Program-made: the position numbers and the translations under genes
Origin: Aedes albopictus
Lineage: Eukaryota; Arthropoda; Insecta; Diptera; Culicidae
Length of the DNA: 64,000 nucleotides
NCBI RefSeq assembly: GCF_035046485.1
Contig: NC_085137.1
Span: forward strand, 248,161,233 to 248,225,232
Direction of reading: 5' to 3'
In this document: one piece after another, positions 1,851-34,740 of the stretch
Numbering within the stretch: position 1 is the stretch's first letter
Layout: each line of letters begins with the position of its first letter
The notes under the pieces: generated by a model
Seen by the model: only the letters and a program-made list of their open reading frames with translations
Database searches by the model: none
What the model was told of the DNA's origin: nothing

Positions 1851-2034
1851 TGTGATACTTTGGAGTTTAATTAACTGTTAGAATCTAATAATAAGCTTTT
1901 ATTTAAACTCTATAGAAACTACACTAAGAACTTCGTAGCACTTTGACGTAGGTACGTCTGCACACCAGAGAAACTAATTCACAAATGCTTTTCTGTACCA
2001 TCGGGTTGCTTGGATCAGTAAATCATTCACCACA
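1851..2034 (-). repeat. 3' LTR of gypsy element (184 bp)
   Basis: Starts TGTGATAC and ends CACCACA. It is the same as 7693-7876 except for two A/G differences near its right end. It is preceded by the target duplication agcat. Confidence 0.95.
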
Positions 2035-2048
2035 TCTTCCTTTTTATC
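2035..2048 (-). other. Polypurine tract of gypsy element
   Basis: On the minus strand the sequence directly before the 3' LTR is purine rich (GATAAAAAGGAAGA). The same position in the small LTR element at 10342 and in the miniature element at 50027 also reads as a purine tract ending GGAGA. That supports a shared ancestry of the three. Confidence 0.7.
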
Positions 2049-4456
2049 CAGATTATGGTTGATTGACAACATAATCGCGTTGCCAGGTTGGTCGAGACAT
2101 CGAACGGGATGGACGAGATGTTTGCACTGGTTCCAGATCGTGACCGACTACAGGACTGTTTGTTCCATCGCATACGCCACTTGATGTTCCTTCATCGTTA
2201 GGATGTTTGGGTATTTTCTTGACATGAGCCGTGTTTCTTTCAAGCACGCCACCGGATACGGGATCAAATACTGTAACGCGGTTTCCTTTCCTCTCAACTA
2301 CGTTATATTCTGTTCTGCCAAATGTTGAAGTAAGTTTGCCTGTCGACACAAGGTTCTTCAACAGAACGTTGTCTCCTTCTTGAACTTCTGAGGGCTTTGC
2401 ATGACGTCTGATATCTTCCCTTTCTTTCCCTCTATGTTTTAAAACGGTATCTCTGTCTTGGGCTTCGGAACTAACAGGTGGCGCCGTTTCTATGTCGCCA
2501 ATCGTCGGAATTTTGGACCGAATTAAACGATTTTGCAATAGCACCGATGGGGCCTTTCCTGTAATTGAGTGTGCAGTGGTGTTATACATCATTAAATACT
2601 GCAGCAAATCCGTTTCCCAATCACGGTTTAAAGAATGGCTGATCTTGAGTCGTTTTAGCAGAGAGCTGTTTTGTCTCTCAACTTCGCCATTCGCCTGCGG
2701 CCAGTATGGAGCGGTATGGTTGAGAGTTATGTTTCTTGTGCGACAATAGTCCTCAAATTCCGTGCTGATAAACTGACGACCGTTGTCCAGTGTGATCGTT
2801 CTTGGATAACCTAACCGCACAAAGATTGGTTCGATTTGTTTGATTGTTTCTTCTGATGTGATCCTCTTCATGATACACACTTCCTTGTATCGGCTGTAGT
2901 AATCCACTATCACCAAGAGATATACGTTCGACGGTAACGGGCCCAGAAAGTCCATTGCTACATCTATCCATGGCTCATTTGGCATAGCTCGACGGCGCAT
3001 TGGCTCGGGTGCAGAGGGTCTACTAACCAAACGGCAGCCTTCACAGTGTTTAACTGTTTTTCTTGCATCTTCGTCCATTCCAGGCCACCAAACTCTGTCA
3101 CGCAGGCGCGTTATCATCAACGTTTCTCCTGGATGCCCTTCGTGTGCGAGCTGCAGCATCCTTGTACGCAAATTTTGAGGAATAACTATTCTGCACCCGC
3201 GGATTACGTAATCTTCAAGAAGAGCCAGCTCGTTTTGGAAGGGTGTATACTTCTTGGCACCATCCCTGACTGATTCATTCGCCCAATCTCCTGTCAACAG
3301 AGCGTCCTTAACGATAAGCAATTCCGGGTCCTCGTCTATTGCGTTCTTGATTTCTGATACATCCACAGCAACTGAATCCGTAATGGCATTGATGTAGATC
3401 TTGTCGTCGCATTTATCGATGTCTTCATTATCATTTGTTGGAGATAAACGAGAAAGCGGGTCCGCAACGTTCAGCTTGCCGGGCTTATACACAATCTTGA
3501 ATTTGAACGGTTGTAATCTGAGTACCCATCTTTCGATGCGACCTGGAGGCTGCGAGGTTGGCTTGAAAATCGCTGTTAAAGGACGGTGGTCAGTTTCGAG
3601 TTCGAAGTCCCTGCCGAGCAGGAACAATTTAAACTTCTCGACGCTCCACACTATGGCGAGGGCTTCCTTCTCGGTTTGACAATATCTGCGCTCTGTGGGA
3701 GATAGGCTCTTGCTAGCATACGAAATGACGATCGGCTTATCATCGCATTCATCTTCAAACTGCAGTAGGACTGCTCCTAAACCCACTGGTGACGCATCTG
3801 CGACTACTCTAGTTCGTCGGTTATTATCGAAAAATCCTAGTACTGGAGCGGAGCATACTGCCTGCTTGAGATTTTGGAACGCAATATCGTGCTTCGACGA
3901 CCAGTCGAATTTCTGTCCGGTAACAGTCAGCTGTCGAAGATGGAATGTCTTGGTAGCCAAATCGGGGATGAACCTTCCTACGTAGCCAACAAGACCAAGA
4001 AAACTGCGTACCTCCTCCGCAGATCTGGGTGACCTGAACTGCTGCACGGCCATTATTTTATCTTCCGTTGGTTTAACGCCGTGTTGGGAGATATCGTGCC
4101 CTAGAAATTCCGTCTCCGATACCTTGAATTTGCACTTCTTCGTATTTAGTACCACGTTGTGGGCTTCCAGGGTATGTAGAACGCGCTGCAAGGCGGCATC
4201 GTGTTCAGCTTTCGTTTTCCCATAAATAAAGATGTCATCTTGAAAGTTGAAGGAGTTGGGACAGTCGCTCAATAACTGTTCGATTATCCTTTGAAAGTGT
4301 TCGGACGCGCTGCAGATTCCGAACATTAACCTTGTGTATCGGAACATCCCGAGGTGCGTAATGAATGTCGTGATGTGTCGACTTGACTCATGCAATTCCA
4401 CTTGGTGATACGCATCTTTGATGTCAAGCCGGGAAAACCACATGGATCCATTTAAC

Positions 4457-4520
4457 CTGTTAATTATTTATTTAATTTATTTGATGTTATTCATTTCACA
4501 ACTTCATCTTGATACAGTAC
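4457..4520 (-). other. Intron-like segment B in gypsy RT (64 bp)
   Basis: On - it begins GTACTG and ends TTAACAG, is AT-rich and contains stops. Its removal joins codons for LLAR to LNGSMWFSRLDI, the normal RT continuity, with correct phase (2 + 1 nt). Its length of 64 is not a multiple of three, so retention also shifts frame. Size and composition resemble the 59-99-bp introns of Nup42 and RIOK3 in this window. Confidence 0.75.
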
Positions 4521-4803
4521 CTTGCAAGAAGATCATCAAGAGTAGGTATCATATGATACTCTCTCCGGATCGCAGTGTTAACACGACGCATGTCGATGCA
4601 CAGCCGCACGTCACCGTTGTCTTTTATGACTATTACAACAGGTGACACCCACGGACTAGGACCATTAACTTTTTCGATAATACCCAATTTTAATAGCCTA
4701 TTGAGTTGATCTTCGACTTGTTGACGAAGAGCTATTGGGACTCGGCGAACATGTTGGGCCACGGGGTTGACAGTTTCATCAATGTTAATACGTATTTTGA
4801 CGC

Positions 4804-4860
4804 CTGTATGTATGATTAAATTTTACAATTTGTGTTTATTAGCTAAATACTAATTTATAC
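4804..4860 (-). other. Intron-like segment A between protease and RT (57 bp)
   Basis: On - it begins GTATAAATTAG and ends CATACATACAG. Removal joins ...KFPVIKG to VKIRINIDETVNPVAQ, the expected lead-in to gypsy RT, with phase 1 + 2 nt. If retained, translation ends three codons after the lysine (G-I-N-stop), so only Gag-protease would be made. A CTAAT branch-like motif lies inside. Confidence 0.75.
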
Positions 4861-6043
4861 CTTTAATTACAGGGAACTTATCAATAGCGTTATCTGAAAT
4901 GTGCTGAATCTCCTCCGGACTCACGGCGCTAGGTAGGCCGATCAACAACACTCCCAACTGCTTCGATGTAACTCTTCCTAGCAAGTTCTGTTCACCTTTT
5001 ACAACATAAAATGTAGTGTCAACACTGAGGCCATTACCCTCGACAACCGTTATTTCGGCATCGAATGTACAGATGATACTCAAGGATTCACGTTGCGCGT
5101 AAGCCGATAGCTGTTTGGATGACGGACGCACATTCTTCAGGAAAGCATTTTTGTTCCGGATATATTGCCACGTTGATTCATCAACAATGTTGTATTTGCT
5201 ACCTGAGTCGATCATCATTTCGATGAGCACGCCACCGACCTTACACCAAACCAACTCGTCGTGGTTATCGCTGATTGCATATATGAAGGAGTCCTGCGGA
5301 TGAGCTTCAGGTTTCACAGCACGTGATTCAGGCAACTGATTGGCGCTGACAGCGTTGATTTTGGGCTTCTTGAAACGGCGATGATCTTGGTAGTCTGTAG
5401 ACTTGCGCTTTTCCGGACCAGACTTATCAATCCTTCCGCGACACTTTTTCGCGAAATGACCAATGGCATCGCAGTTGTGACACTTGACGTTCTTGGCTGG
5501 ACAGTTCTCTTCTGGCTTGTGTGGTCTGTTGCCACATCTGCTACAATCGGAAACTTGATAGCTTTGTGCCCAGCGAGATTTGTCATTAGTATTGGATATT
5601 TTGTTCACAAACGTACTGCCACGACTGGTTTCTAGCATGTTCCCAGCACTAGAAGCATGTTGGTTCAACTCACGGACTTGGTGTTGAATAGAAAGGTGGG
5701 TGTTGACGAGGTTGGTAAGCTCGTCCAAGTTGATGTTGGGCTTCTCCAATATTTTCCGTCACAATTCAGGTGGTGCAAGCATTACGATCTTGTCAATCAC
5801 GGCTGCATCGCGGCTTTCTCGTTCCGTTGTTCTAAACTGACATTTAGTGGCCAATACCTTGGCCCGCAGCAAAAATTTGTCAAGGGTCTCGCCGGTGACT
5901 GGTTTCTGCGTCCAAAATGCGTGCCTCTCGAAGGTGTCGTGGCGTTTCGGAGCAAAATAATTGTCCAATCGTTGTATGACATTTTCGAAATCATCTCCGC
6001 CGTCTTCAGTGGTTTCATGGTTAGCATTGGGTAAGCTCTCATA

Positions 6044-6458
6044 GGCACCCTACAGACCACTCAAACGGTTTGACCAACATTGACTCCGCCCCCAGATTGG
6101 TGGTTGAGTTGGTGCTGTGTTTGACCGTGTGTGATGCTGTTTGACGAACCGATTTGGCAGCTCGTCAAACCGATTTGACGGTTGATGGTTTGGTCGGCAA
6201 AAATCAAACCAGTTTGATTTTACTCAAACCAACGGTGGGCGGAGCCAATGTTTGACGAACCGATCGTACCGTGTGTAGTGTTGTTGCACAAACATAGTGC
6301 GATTCCAAATGGGGGATGATGTTGGTGCAACCAAAGTGACATGTTGGTGCAACACGATTTGGCAGTTCGTCATACGGTTGCAGAAACATTCGCTGGTTCG
6401 ACCAACCTGGGGGCGGTGGCAATGTTGGTCAAACCGTTTGACTGGTGTGTAGGGTGCC
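6044..6458. mobile_element. 415-bp MITE inserted in gypsy gag
   Basis: Terminal inverted repeats of about 45 bp read GGCACCCTACA...AAACGGTTTGACCAACATT from either end. Flanks are ATA at 6041-6043 and 6459-6461, a likely 3-bp duplication. Removing the element plus one ATA restores the gag frame (…LQRVY-ESLPN…). There is no transposase. A 3-bp duplication suggests a PIF/Harbinger-like origin (inference). Confidence 0.85.
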
Positions 6459-6649
6459 ATACACACGTTGAAGTTGACGACCAGCGACAGCCAGGAAGAT
6501 GCTTTTGAGTCTTTTCTTGCTCTTCTTGCTCATCGCAGCCGCGATGTACTCAAACTGTCTCTTGTAATCGAACCATGAGCGCTTGCACGCTGACGTCATC
6601 ACTGTCTCCTTCTCTTTCTTTCCTTCGGCGGCGGTCTATAAAGCCGTCC

Positions 6650-6676
6650 TTGCCCTCAAAAAAAATTTGAGGGCAA
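6650..6676. other. 27-bp perfect palindrome in gypsy leader
   Basis: TTGCCCTCAAA is followed by five bases and then TTTGAGGGCAA, giving an 11-bp stem on either strand. It lies 51 bp upstream (on -) of the gag start at 6599. It could be a leader RNA hairpin; its function is unknown. Confidence 0.6.
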
Positions 6677-7082
6677 TGTTTACAAATCGTATGAGAATTC
6701 GATGAGGTTATGTTTTTGATGCATGCCTCTATGATTGTCTAAGTTCCGTTATTGGAACGTTGTCACACTCGAACGGTGGCAGTTTAAACAACTGGTCTTC
6801 CATCTGTTTAAATTAGATTTTATTAAGTCGTGGTTGCATTCAAAAAATGTATACTTTTACAAACTTTGGGAGATCTTAGACACATGACATAAACAAACTA
6901 AGATTGTTTTTCATTTGCCCAGTTGCCATTGGCAACCAATTCCGTCTGGTTCACTGGGCTTGCCATATATTAAGCGATGCATTGCGTTGGCATGACAACC
7001 ACGTGTTATTATTATTTTTTTAGCATTTTACACGTTGCCCTCAAGGCCAAGGCGAAAACCCTTTTTAGAGGCAAAATTTTCA

Positions 7083-7572
7083 CAGTTTGACCTGGCGGAT
7101 CGTATCCGCCGCAAATGCAGTTGCTTTTTAAGGCCAACCGTTCGTACAACAGCCTGACCCGACGGATCGTATCCGTCGCTAAGGCAAGTTCCCTTCGAAA
7201 GGCGAACTTTTTACAACCTGACCCGACGGATCGTATCCGCCGCTAAGGTAGTTGCCTTTGAAGGTCAACTTTTTGTACAACAGCCTGACCCGACGGATCG
7301 TATCCGCCGCTAAGGCAAGCTCCCTTCGAAAGGCGAACTTTTTACAACCTGACCCGACGGATCGTATCCGCCGCTAAGGTAGTTGCCTTTGAAGGTCAAC
7401 TTTTCTTTCAACAGTCTGACCCGACGGATCGTATCCGTCGCTAAGGCAAGTTTCCTTTTGAGGCGAACTTTTACAGCCTGACCCGGCGGATCGTATCCGC
7501 CGCTGAGGCAAGTTCCCTCCTAAGGTGAACTTTTCAGCCTGGCCCGACGAATCGAGTTCGTCGCTAAGGCAA
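7083..7572 (-). repeat. Eight-unit tandem hairpin array in gypsy 5' leader
   Basis: Units of 61-67 bp start at about 7083, 7145, 7209, 7275, 7339, 7406, 7468 and 7529. Each holds a hairpin of the form GACGGAT-cgt-ATCCGTC. Variants GGCGGAT/ATCCGCC and GACGAA/TTCGTC keep pairing by changes on both arms. A second hairpin of the form AAGTTC...GAACTT or GTTG...CAAC follows. The units alternate between two subtypes. The array sits between the PBS and gag, where packaging or translation signals usually lie. Confidence 0.85.
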
Positions 7573-7672
7573 CCACATGTTTGATACAGAAAAAAAATGT
7601 GCTTGATTTCCCAACTTCTGCAAAAGTTGCTTGAGGGTTTTACTTACATTTTCCGATACTCAAAGGCAGCGT

Positions 7673-7690
7673 GGATTGTTCTCGTCGCCA
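7673..7690 (-). other. Primer-binding site of gypsy element
   Basis: On -, two bases after the 5' LTR, the sequence reads TGGCGACGAGAACAATCC. TGG matches the CCA end of a tRNA. The first 12 bases are identical to the corresponding site of the element at 10168-11670. The exact tRNA was not determined. Confidence 0.7.
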
Positions 7691-7692
7691 GA

Positions 7693-7876
7693 TGTGATAC
7701 TTTGGAGTTTAATTAACTGTTAGAATCTAATAATAAGCTTTTATTTAAACTCTATAGAAACTACACTAAGAACTTCGTAGCACTTTGACGTAGGTACGTC
7801 TGCACACCAGAGAAACTAATTCACGAATGCTTTTCTGTACCATCGGGTTGCTTGGATCAGTGAATCATTCACCACA
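7693..7876 (-). repeat. 5' LTR of gypsy element (184 bp)
   Basis: TGTGATAC...CACCACA, two differences from 1851-2034. It is followed by the target duplication agcat at 7877-7881. Confidence 0.95.
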
Positions 7877-7881
7877 AGCAT

Positions 7882-10380: not shown

Positions 10381-10985
10381 AACCCCAGCCCGGTGGATGT
10401 GCGTTCGATGGGGATCTCCAACTGGTCCTCCTTGAGCTCCGTAAATGCGTCCGTGGCATCTTTTGATTTGACTGCCGCCGCCGTCGTCACTGCCACCACA
10501 TCAGCCTGCTCATCACCACCTTGACTGGCCGCTTCCAAGGCCGGATGTTCCTTGAGCTTCGGCGGTGGCGGAAGCGACACTTTCAGCTTCAGTGAACTCA
10601 GCATCCGACTGCTCTTCTTGACGGCAGTATCGTGATGTACGTGTTAGTTTTGTTAGATGATGTGAAATGTCTCTTCGATGCAGTTTGGAGATGGGCTTCT
10701 TCTCGTGGGAATCCTCATTTTCCTCCGAGTGGCACCGCAACAAATTCGGTCTTCGTCCTCGTTCACGTCGAATCCTCTCGAAGTCGTCGTCGCCTCCATC
10801 GAACTCTTCATTCTCCTTGTTGGCTTCCTCCTCGGCGATGGGTTCGTTGGGTACCACATCTTGGATGTCGTCCAGCGTGAACGCCATGCCTCCGATCTTG
10901 GATGGTCTGGAGGAAAAATCCACCGAGAGGGTGTTCAGATTGCCCCCGCTCATGTCGTCCGACCGCTTTCTTGCCCGCACCGGTA
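10381..10985 (-). pseudogene. Transduced scribble-like coding fragment
   Basis: On - it encodes, in order, a linker with FTLDDIQDVVPNEP, an acidic stretch, FERIRRERGRRPNLL, KLHRRDISHHL, and, after a frame change near 10600, VSLPPPPKLKEHPAL followed by IPIERTSTGLGL at the edge. An HRRDTPHHL-like motif after the LRR region and a GLG-containing start of PDZ1 are features of LAP-family Scribble proteins, the cortical polarity scaffolds. Homology stops at GLGL just before the rest of the PDZ1 core, next to the element's PPT. The fragment lacks start codon, LRRs and PDZ domains and is in sense orientation. The family assignment is from remembered motifs, not a search. Confidence 0.6.
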
Positions 10986-11440
10986 GGATTTTCATCCGCC
11001 GCAAAGGCACCTCCCTTTTTCAAGGCGAAGTATTCTTGCCCGCACCGGTAGGATTTTCATCCACCGCAAAGGCATCTCCCTCTTTCGAGGCGAGATATTC
11101 TTGCCCGCACCGGTCGGATTTTCATCCGCCGCAAAGGCATCTCCCTCTTTCGAGGCGAGATATTCTTGCCCGCACCGGTCGGATTTTCATCCGCCGCAAA
11201 GGCATCTCCCTCTTTCGAGGCGAGATATTCTTGCCCGCACCGGTCGGATTTTCATCCGCCGCAAAGGCATCTCCCTCTTTCGAGGCGAGATATTCTTGCC
11301 CGCACCGGTCGGATTTTCATCCGCCGCAAAGGCATCTCCCTCTTTCGAGGCGAGATATTCTTGCCTGAACCGGTCAAATTTTCATCAACCGTCAGGCATC
11401 CCCCTCTTTCGAGGCGAGATGTTTTTACGCCAAATCCGTC
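10975..11440 (-). repeat. 65-bp tandem array in leader of non-autonomous LTR element
   Basis: About seven units begin 'cttgcccgcaccggtcgg'; most are identical and the outer ones differ. Each contains a GGAT-tttc-ATCC hairpin and a second ATCTC...GAGAT hairpin, in the same order as the units at 7083-7572. The array is open in several frames and gives repetitive spurious peptides. Confidence 0.9.
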
Positions 11441-29169: not shown

Positions 29170-32100
29170 ATGGTCGATGCCAGATTCTCTATTCCAAAGT
29201 TAAACGGACAGAACTGGCAGAGCTGGAAAGTGCGCGTAGAAATGCTTTTGTGTCGCGAGGATCTGTGGTACGTAATTGAAGACGATCCTCCGGAAGACGA
29301 TGAACAGATCGAGTTCGCTCGGTGGAAGGTTGCCGATCGAAAAGCTAAAGCGACCATTGTGCTCTTGTTAGAAGACAGCCAGCTCCCGCTGGTGAAGAAT
29401 AGTGTTTCCGCGCGTGAAGTGTATAACTCGCTCAAATCGTACCACCAGAAAACAAGTCGGTCTGTGCGCGTTTCGCTGCTGAAGAAATTGTGCGCGATGA
29501 ATCTCCCAGAGCGCGGGGATCTGGAGCGACACTTGTGCGAAATCGACGAGTTGTTCGACAGACTTGGAGCCGCGGGCACAGAACTTGACAAGGACACAAA
29601 GATCTGTATGCTCTTGCGAAGCCTGCCGCCGTCGTTCGACGGAATCGTCTCGGCACTCGATGGTCGGCCAGATGACGATATTTCCATGGACGTAGTCAAG
29701 TCCAAACTGATGGACGAGTACCTCAGGCGCATGGAGAGGGAAGGTTCCTCCAGCAAAACGGAGAAGGCGATGCGCTCCTCGGAAGGGAAGAAGACGAAAG
29801 AAACGAGAACGTGCCACTTTTGCAAGCTGCCGGGCCACCTGCGCCGGAACTGCAGGAAGTTTCTCGCGTCGCAGAATGCGGAGTGCTCGAAGAAAGAGGG
29901 CGCAAAAGCGAAGACCGCCCAAGCTGGTGAGAAGCAGGTTGCTTTCACGCTGGCTGAAGATGCTGGCTCGTCTGCCTGGATCATCGACAGCGGAGCAAGT
30001 ACTCACATGACCGGAGACAGATCCTTCTTCGGAGAACTTCAGGAATTCGCTGGAGGTTGGATCACCATGGCGAATGGTGAGAAAACACAGATTCGCGGCG
30101 AAGGAAGTGGTGTGATCAGTGGTGTTGACGATAACGGTGAAAATGTGAAGATCTCGATGGCCGAAGTGAAGTATGTGCCGGGCCTCGCGACGTGTTTGAT
30201 TTCGGTGGGGCGTCTGGCGAAGAAGAATCTGAAAGTGGTATTTGAAGAAGATTCGTGCAACATCTGTGACCAGAAGGGAACCGTTGTCGCGACCGGAGTT
30301 CGCGCCGGCGGCCTCTATCGCCTGCGGCTTGGTCATTCGTCGATGAGTGCTACAGCTGGCCAACATCTGGAGAACTGCCAGCACCAGTGGCACCGGCGGT
30401 TGGGCCACCGCGAGTGGGCAGCTGCCGAGCGTTTGCTGAAGGAGGAGCTTGCGACCGGACTTAAGGTGAGCAACTGTGGATTGCGAGTTGTGTGTGAGTG
30501 TTGCATGGAGGGGAAGTCCGCCCGGGCCCCCTTTCCTGCGGTGTGTGAGCGAAAATCAACCCAGATTCTCGACATCGTCCACACAGACCTCTGTGGACCG
30601 ATGAAGAATGAGACCCCAAGTGGTTGCCGCTATGTCATGCATATTATTGATGACTATAGTCGGTTTACCGTGACATACTTGCTGAAAGCAAAGTCCGAAG
30701 CAGCAGGAAACATCAAGGACTATGTCCGGTGGGTTGAGACTTTGACAGGGCGCAAGCCGCGTGTAGTCAGGTCTGACGGCGGTGGCGAATTTGATAACGC
30801 CGAGCTGAGGCGATTTTACAAGGAGGAGGGAATAAAGCCACAATACACAACCGCATATTCTCCGCAATCCAACGGCGTTGCTGAGCGGAAGAATCGGTCG
30901 ATAACCGAAATGGCGACATGCATGTTGATCGACGCGAACCTGGAGAAACGGTACTGGGGTGAAGCGGTACTCACTGCCACCTACCTTCAGAACCGACTTC
31001 CGTCCAGGTCAATCAACAAGACGCCCTTCGAACTGTGGTGGGGGCGTAAGCCGGACCTCAGCCACCTTCGAGTGTTCGGCGCTGAGGCGTTTGTCCACAT
31101 TCCGGAAACCAAGCGAAGCAAACTGGAGAGCAAAGCTCGGAAGCTTATCTTCGTGGGATATTCCATGGAGCATAAAGGGTATCGGTTCCTCGATCGTGAG
31201 ACGGACCGTATCGTTGTCAGCCGCGATGCCAGATTCGTGGAGCTGGGCAATGGTTCATCGTGTACGGAGCTTCCTGTTGCTGTTCCGGATCCTGCAAAAC
31301 GTCGAGCTGTTGAAAAGAGCGAAGTGCTGTTCAAGGAAGAGAACGAAGCGAAGCCAGAATGTGATGAGGCAGAAGATCCCTTGAGAGTGCTGCCAGGAGA
31401 AGAGGCAAACAGTGATGAAGAACAAAGTGATGCGAATAGCCAATACGAATCTATGAGTGACAGTTCTGAGGCGAGAGTGCAAGCCCCTGTTCGTCAGTCT
31501 TCCCGTGTGAACCGTGGTGCAATCCCCAAACATTTGAACGATTATGTGCTGGACTTTTCTGTGGGTATTGCTGCGTGTGCGGTCGAAGAACCGACGGACG
31601 TTAGTGAAGCAAAGCAGAAGCGTGAGTGGAGAGAGGCTATGGTCGATGAGCTAGACTCACATCGGCGAAATGACACTTGGGAGCTCGTTCCATTGCCTCC
31701 TGGAAAGAAGGCGATAGGCTCCAAGTGGGTGTTTAAAGTGAAGAAAGACGAACAAGGGCGAGTGATTAAGTACAAGGCTAGAATAGTGGCGCAAGGATAT
31801 GCGCAGAAGTTTGGTGTGGACTTTAACCAAGTGTTTGCTCCCGTGACACACCAAGCGACGCTGCGTACATTTCTCGTAGTGGCTGCGAAGCAGAAGATGT
31901 TCGTTCGGCACGTTGACGTTAAGACAGCCTACCTCAACGGCGAGTTAGAGGAAGAGCTGTACATGCGCCAACCGCCGGGTTACGAGGTACCTGGACAGGA
32001 GGAGTCTGTATGCCGTCTGAAGCGTAGCATCTACGGCTTACGACAGGCCGCGCGCTGCTGGAATAAGAAGCTGCAGGAGGTTTTGTCAAAGCTTGGATTT

Positions 32101-34306: not shown

Positions 34307-34740
34307 TCATTTTTCAGTTTCATCACTTACGTTTTCCGCTGATACCTCTTCCTCCTGTTTTTGAATGGTCGCGATATTACGCGGTGGACCCGCGGACGTA
34401 GATGCCCCGTTCAAGTTTGCGACAATGCTCTCCAGCGTTGGCATACTAAATGGTGTACGATAAATGTACTGATTAGGTCCTCTTAAATCTATCACAAGGC
34501 GTATATCGTGCTTGCCCTTTGGAACCACGATCATGGAGGAACAAAACGAGGTGTCCATGTCCTGCGTTACGTTTTCAATGATGTTGGAACTGACTAATTG
34601 TTGGAGACGTTCTTCTACCAACGGTTTGACGGCCTGGGGTATGCTGAGATAAATGTTTCTGCATGGTGGTACTGACTTGTTGTACGAAATTTTCACCGGT
34701 GGTATGTTGAATTTCGGAAAAGAATCATTCGAAAATCATT
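34307..34740 (-). pseudogene. Ty3/gypsy RT fragment fused to foreign C-terminus
   Basis: On - the frame encodes the RT finger region: FPKFNIPPVKISYNKS, VEERLQQLVSSNIIENV, SMIVVPKGKHDIRLVIDLRG and TPFSMPTLESIVANLNGA. Where a normal RT continues to the palm, this copy switches to STSAGPPRNIATIQKQEEEV and stops after SDETEK. A GTAAGT splice-donor-like site lies near the end (reads AAAACGTAAGTGATG). No LTRs were found nearby. It is either a truncated element or an exonised fragment; the former is simpler. Confidence 0.65.

Follow-up and report, generated by a model that had tools for sequence, protein, structure and literature searches.

What keeps introns in a genetic element that is copied through RNA? 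The question is raised by a 64,000-nucleotide stretch of the Aedes albopictus genome (NC_085137.1, positions 248,161,233 to 248,225,232; here called the window), which sits on a 518.7-Mb contig of a 1.34-Gb assembly. The minus strand of the window carries, at positions 1851 to 7876, a Ty3/gypsy long terminal repeat (LTR) retrotransposon, recognized by its LTR pair, its target site duplication (TSD), and its domain order. Two short segments interrupt the protease-pol frame of this element. We found that both are genuine spliceosomal GT-AG introns, with GT and AG ends, a conserved position, and exactly empty sites in sister copies. We suggest, with a probability of about 0.7, that they form an expression switch in which the unspliced RNA would encode Gag-protease and serve as the genome, and the spliced RNA would encode Gag-Pol. 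This reading is drawn from DNA copies and from protein sequences.

A preliminary description of the locus had proposed the two segments as introns, and its coordinates (4860 to 4804, 57 bp; 4520 to 4457, 64 bp), GT/AG ends, and codon phases (1+2 and 2+1) all proved to be correct. Intron 1 (minus strand, 4804 to 4860) begins GTATAA, ends ATACAG, and lies in phase 1. Intron 2 (minus strand, 4457 to 4520) begins GTACTG, ends TTAACAG, and lies in phase 2. The three minus-strand exons are exon 1 (4861 to 6803), which encodes Gag and protease from the ATG at 6803 to the first base of a split Gly codon; exon 2 (4521 to 4803, 283 nt), which encodes the N-terminal part of reverse transcriptase (RT); and exon 3 (2053 to 4456, in the open reading frame [ORF] at 2053 to 4467), which encodes the remaining RT, RNase H, and integrase up to the stop codon. 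Exon 1 is interrupted in the window copy and was delimited from the ORFs at 4850 to 5758 and 5759 to 6049, the match to a 460-residue relative (P0121), and the start codon. Retaining the first segment gives K-G-I-N-stop (TAG), three codons past the last protease codon, as had been claimed. This segment contains two in-frame stops, and the length of the second is 64 bp. In relatives, the residues on either side of each segment adjoin directly. Each segment is therefore a clean insert that has neither removed nor added anything.

To find further copies, we searched the genome with a 701-base stretch covering the junctions. This search gave 48 matches, of which 47 were read (C1:69670814 was left out), and one locus, L060, was added from a search with the exon-2 peptide. 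Introns are present at the identical two sites in six families, A (the window's) to F. At site 1, an intron is found in 19 of the 22 copies judged (A 7, B 4, C 3, D 2, E 1, F 2), one family-B intron having lost its 3' end through a deletion. The site is exactly empty in three copies, L016 (B), L043 (F), and L060 (E). At site 2, 21 of the 24 copies judged have the intron (A 8, B 4, C 5, D 2, E 1, F 1), and L016, L042, and L043 are exactly empty; two of the five family-C introns belong to neighboring copies with a decayed acceptor. No judgment was made for L052 and L045 at site 1 or for L056 at site 2. The site-1 introns measure 57, 57, 60, 62, 66, and 66 bp over the six families (62 bp in family D). 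Intron sequences differ among families, with the clearest similarity between A and B. Because different intron sequences occupy the same positions in six diverged families, and sister copies are exactly empty, the segments are beyond chance. A private late insertion in one dead copy was considered and rejected, as relatives carry introns at the same sites. Searches of viral contigs and of prokaryote genome contigs found no related DNA. One family-A copy, L029, has a 229-bp, 100% identical direct repeat (671 to 899 and 4283 to 4511) around a foreign insert in its protease part, which is probably a nested LTR element.

Splicing itself has left a trace. The preliminary description had proposed that both segments are spliced, and this is borne out by copies from which one intron or the pair is missing precisely between the splice sites. 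Some families contain DNA copies of both kinds, with introns and exactly without. In family B, L016/L021 lacks both introns exactly and is 99.7 to 100% identical to the intron-bearing L022 on either side of each site; its 3' LTR is complete and its 5' part is gone. Family F forms a series, in which L059 has both introns, L042/L057 has intron 1 only, and L043/L058 has neither. Next to intron 1, L057 and L058 match each other at 99.2% on one side and 98.7% on the other, and their LTR pairs are identical over 193 bp and 181 bp, respectively; one of the two L058 LTRs is missing about 13 bp from its outer end. Around exon 2, the open frame spans 897 codons in L057 and 1358 in L058, versus 73 to 116 in 18 intron-bounded rows. 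In family E, L060 is exactly without intron 1, is 98.5% and 99.2% identical to the intron-bearing L037 on its two sides, and has lost most of the downstream pol. Since these copies without introns precisely exist, the RNA of families B, E, and F was spliced exactly at the sites. The simplest cause of the exact loss would be reverse transcription of partly or fully spliced RNA. On the other side, twelve elements with the site-1 intron (one of them truncated) have LTR pairs that are 98.9 to 100% identical. Therefore, the RNA copied there was unspliced at site 1. Most copies judged, young ones included, keep their introns, so intron-bearing RNA has been reverse transcribed recently.

We then asked where the proteins end. 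In families A to F, the frame running into intron 1 stops after 3, 3, 3, 1, 4, and 1 codons, the split codon included. We found 24 public Gag-protease relatives, 19 of which reach the junction. Sixteen of these 19 end 0 to 20 residues past FPxIKG or its equivalent, and three run on; the length limits of this search shut out full Gag-Pol, and the ends of database proteins may be contig ends. Among 14 exon-2-sized proteins, seven end at site 2 or slightly into the intron, six run through, and one ends earlier. By eye, P0145, P0147, and P0150 can be assigned to families B, D, and C, their sequences reading through the intron. P0146 and P0151 continue past site 2, in a protein set that does not distinguish RNA from DNA sources. 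In two other proteins, P0010 and P0015, the RNase H and protease parts contain in-frame inserts (about 20 and 25 residues) that resemble retained introns at further positions.

Introns are also found elsewhere in pol. The search with the exon-2 peptide gave 4444 first-look candidates, of which 150 matches were scored. Twenty-two were at least 76% identical and make up the site 1/2 clade, and 128 were at most 64% identical. The open frame is 560 to 640 codons long in 59 of these 128 and exceeds 1250 codons in nine. We read eight loci from the 560-to-640 group and four of the nine with the longest frames (L068 to L071). Seven of the eight (L054, L061 to L064, L066, and L067) have a GT...AG intron of 89 to 159 bp in RT at GL(Y/F)R|(Y/F)KRL, in phase 2 and with an immediate stop (site 3a). 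In L065, the remaining locus, the intron is 70 bp long, lies a few residues farther upstream, and is in phase 1 (site 3b). Of the long frames, L071 has a 97-bp intron at GLFR|YKRL, L070 is exactly empty at this site, and L068 and L069 are intron-free at both RT positions. The site-3a intron is thus present in eight of the nine L054-type loci read. In a tree of 60 columns (the intron-free L021 and L043 counted with their clade, L071 left out), L070 falls inside the L054-type group. This group forms a supported clade separate from that of sites 1 and 2, and L065 belongs to neither. Because of these placements, we conclude from the tree that pol introns arose at least twice, and probably three times. 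The start of the site-3a intron in L054 (1006 to 1139) reads like a worn copy of the downstream coding sequence (R*MNLLFGIC versus YKRLMFGVS), and at this one locus the resemblance is possibly a trace of intron birth by tandem duplication. The pol frames of five database proteins (P0090, P0093, P0095, P0080, and P0087) open with residues like those of a 3' splice site, such as FCFIQ or SLIVQ, before GLFRYKRL. Such starts fit introns near site 3 in further families.

The coding sequence around the introns has been under selection. Over exons 2 and 3 of families A to D, synonymous differences are 0.79 to 0.98, that is, saturated, and nonsynonymous differences are 0.03 to 0.26, in an ungapped comparison in which an extra family-D residue near the end of the exon-3 stretch inflates its nonsynonymous value. 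Saturation makes dS incomputable, and families E and F were left out of this comparison. Because synonymous sites are saturated and nonsynonymous differences are low, selection has acted for a long time on the protein straddling the introns in intron-bearing lineages. An RT tree of 41 rows, 36 of them different, groups families A to F on the same side of a branch supported at 99/97. That side also holds P0007 and proteins from Topomyia, Uranotaenia, and Armigeres; the intron state was read for the families only. The intron label on this tree takes three changes, as one gain and two losses would give. The preliminary description had the switch replacing a frameshift, which is unsupported, as the frame runs on unbroken in 10 of 10 more distant loci judged at site 1, and likewise at site 2. 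Because these outgroup loci run across both sites, the clade ancestor probably had a single continuous Gag-Pol frame. The introns would then have added a switch and replaced no frameshift.

In the model that we propose, one transcript would have two fates. In the unspliced RNA, the frame would end at the stop just inside intron 1 to give Gag-protease, and the same RNA would be packaged as the genome. In the spliced RNA, protease would be joined to RT-RNase H-integrase to give Gag-Pol; exons 1 and 2 are in phase across intron 1, which fits such a fusion. Most insect donors carry a G at +5. Donors that mostly lack this G may be spliced inefficiently, which would leave Gag-protease in excess. The introns would be kept because copies that lose them lose the ratio of Gag to Gag-Pol, and intron-free copies would still be able to move, perhaps helped in trans. 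On balance, we lean toward a broader statement, that animal LTR elements have repeatedly and independently gained such an intron-retention switch, in the protease-RT stretch of Mag-like elements: at sites 1 and 2 in one clade, at site 3a in a second, and at site 3b in a third. In each case a short intron with a weak-looking donor and an early stop would split the single ancestral Gag-Pol frame into Gag-protease from unspliced, genomic RNA and Gag-Pol from spliced RNA, and selection on the ratio would maintain the switch against steady loss through reverse transcription of spliced RNA.

Two counts bear on this model. In about 0.1% of shuffles, all six families stop as early as the latest of the observed stops, and 18 of the 21 donors read in these elements lack a G at +5. 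Several points weigh against it, however. Neither count corrects for relatedness, and AT-rich introns and GTAA donors by themselves yield early stops to some extent. Intron-free movers exist: L058, with LTRs identical over 181 bp, and L070, with its empty site. The introns are therefore not strictly needed for a round of transposition. None of the more distant loci has an intron at site 1 (10 judged) or site 2 (10 judged), although L054 among them has an intron elsewhere, in the second clade. With the second-clade intron, which lies inside RT, unspliced RNA would yield Gag-protease with a truncated RT attached, a less neat outcome. Finally, P0151 matches family C exactly over exon 2 and continues through site 2; if it comes from DNA, it marks one more loss.

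Could the introns be real and spliced and yet set no ratio? Leaked unspliced RNA would then be packaged, and the introns would persist by inertia as neutral passengers. Young elements do include intron-free copies, and distant relatives manage without introns at these sites. However, empty sites are not rare among the copies judged (3 of 22 and 3 of 24), and still the two positions remain occupied in all six families. The four families compared show saturated synonymous sites, and pol introns arose at other positions in the second clade. We consider this explanation unlikely, though worth keeping in view. A second alternative is a tissue gate, in which the germ line permits splicing and the soma blocks it, as with P-element intron 3 in Drosophila; the polymerase would thereby be confined to the germ line. 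Donors without a +5 G and early stops fit such regulated retention equally well. This gate, which is compatible with the ratio switch, seems improbable to us. It is more improbable still that intron-free relatives supply the enzymes in trans and that intron-bearing copies need no splicing to move. The Aedes albopictus genome has many related pol frames lacking these introns, but between intron-bearing families the RT sequence flanking the introns on either side shows strong purifying selection, and exact intron loss shows that splicing occurs. Two readings without introns, random insertion or decay on the one hand and frameshift or readthrough past a stop on the other, might be suggested by the 57 bp of segment 1. 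This length is a multiple of three, as readthrough would require, like the site-1 introns of B, C, E, and F. Such readings are refuted by the two in-frame stops in segment 1, the 64-bp second segment, the 62-bp site-1 intron of family D, the GT/AG ends kept across six families, and the exact empty sites.

The ratio switch has partial parallels in known systems. Splicing balances Gag and Pol in the Ty1/copia element copia, and Gag of foamy viruses is made from unspliced RNA. Intron-containing Penelope-like elements are retroelements that keep introns, but, unlike the mosquito element, they are not LTR elements. The closest parallel is Ogre, a plant Ty3/gypsy element of the Tat clade. The preliminary description called the strategy unusual, which holds, but it is not new as a kind, since Ogre, as excerpted in PMC6317226, has the same order of parts and the same inferred logic. 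The mosquito element shares with Ogre a stop-bearing intron between protease and RT, here in six families. Excerpts of two other accounts mention a pol or gag-pol intron in Ogre families (PMC2533021, PMC3305785). The Ogre intron region averages 274 bp, versus 57 to 66 bp at mosquito site 1, and the mosquito element has two introns. According to the same excerpts, Ogre has an additional RNase H domain (PMC6317226) and LTRs of 2435 to 3529 bp (PMC2533021). The mosquito element lacks these traits, as its LTR is 184 bp long and no further RNase H family matched between RT_RNaseH and Integrase_H2C2 at an E value of ≤0.01. Because kingdom, intron size and number, RNase H domain, and LTR length differ, the mosquito and Ogre introns look like independent origins; the trees held no Ogre sequence.

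Other systems differ in which product is spliced. In BARE, a Ty1/copia element, splicing balances Gag and Pol by favoring a Gag-only RNA, as the abstracted account has it (PMC3735527). This has the opposite sign to the mosquito element, in which retention would give Gag-protease and splicing would give Gag-Pol. Foamy viruses, as described in part of PMC3185757, make Pol from a singly spliced RNA without a Gag-Pol fusion; the mosquito element would also make Pol through spliced RNA, but as a fusion. Cer1 of C. elegans is an LTR retrotransposon that has to export unspliced genomic RNA, and its spliced RNA encodes the regulator CERV, unlike the proposed Gag-Pol of the mosquito element (PMC10309623, in excerpt). 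Among the titles and abstract openings listed from an open-licence library, no animal LTR element with pol introns was found, and an earlier description is possible. The kind is known from plants; what looks new is its occurrence in an animal, with introns gained repeatedly and lost in natural copies.

The remaining features of the window element suggest that it may be Mag-like, a placement made from its own traits, with no named Mag reference in the trees. Its 5' LTR (minus strand, 7693 to 7876) and 3' LTR (minus strand, 1851 to 2034) are each 184 bp long and 98.9% identical. The flanks, read directly, carry the 5-bp TSD AGCAT at 7877 to 7881 and 1846 to 1850. The primer-binding site (PBS), TGGCGACGAGAAC (minus strand, 7678 to 7690), was located from sequence 2 nt after the 5' LTR. 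Its sequence TGGCGACGAG is of a type that we take to be tRNA-Ser. LTR length, TSD length, and this putative tRNA match are the traits to compare with Mag. For comparison, the Culex Mag lineage has LTRs of 119 to 304 bp, a PBS mostly for Ser or Leu, a TSD of 4 to 5 bp, and mostly one or two ORFs; the part of this account at hand mentions no introns within elements, and "intron" there refers to insertion sites (PMC3286476). In the window, the stretch between the 5' LTR and gag (7082 to 7584) holds a unit of about 65 bp repeated eight times in tandem; for three Mag-like elements of Culex, repeats in the 5' untranslated region are reported as well (PMC3286476).

Exon 3 matches the Pfam families RVT_1, RT_RNaseH, RT_RNaseH_2, Integrase_H2C2, and rve, in the order RT-RNase H-integrase. 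The exon-2 frame and the two upstream gag pieces had no Pfam match at an E value of ≤0.01, and the Gag-protease frame has a zinc knuckle match below the Pfam cutoff. A protein search with the longest pol exon listed 120 of 3285 matches. Those listed are its own family and relatives that NCBI names "K02A2.6-like," many of them dipteran, with up to 86% identity. The gag of the window copy is broken by two insertions and by an in-frame stop codon (minus strand, 5759 to 5761, at a frame boundary). Therefore, the window copy is defective. The first insertion (6044 to 6458, 415 bp) resembles a miniature inverted-repeat transposable element (MITE), with 58-bp terminal inverted repeats that are 91% complementary and ATA on either flank, a possible 3-bp duplication. 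The second (6575 to 6730, about 156 bp, ends approximate), seen as a gap against P0121, has TCAT on either side and carries a GCCCTCAAA/TTTGAGGGC palindrome. Elsewhere in the window, a tandem array of six overlapping copies in register has a 65-bp period (10903 to 11422), and 30394 to 31047 and 34400 to 34732 weakly match (27 to 33% identity) integrase and RT parts of Gypsy query proteins.

Introns are expected to vanish from elements that are copied through RNA, and here they are kept in six families despite exact loss in sister copies. These natural copies let the balance between intron loss and selection be measured, as a natural version of the marked-intron transposition test. To gene finders, such elements appear broken or as multi-exon host genes, which is a warning for annotation. 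The mosquito families also offer a system for asking how unspliced RNA exits the nucleus and how an LTR element sets its ratio of Gag to Pol without frameshifting. If the proposed switch is true, it would extend the strategy of plant Ogre elements to animals, with apparently independent gains at several positions.
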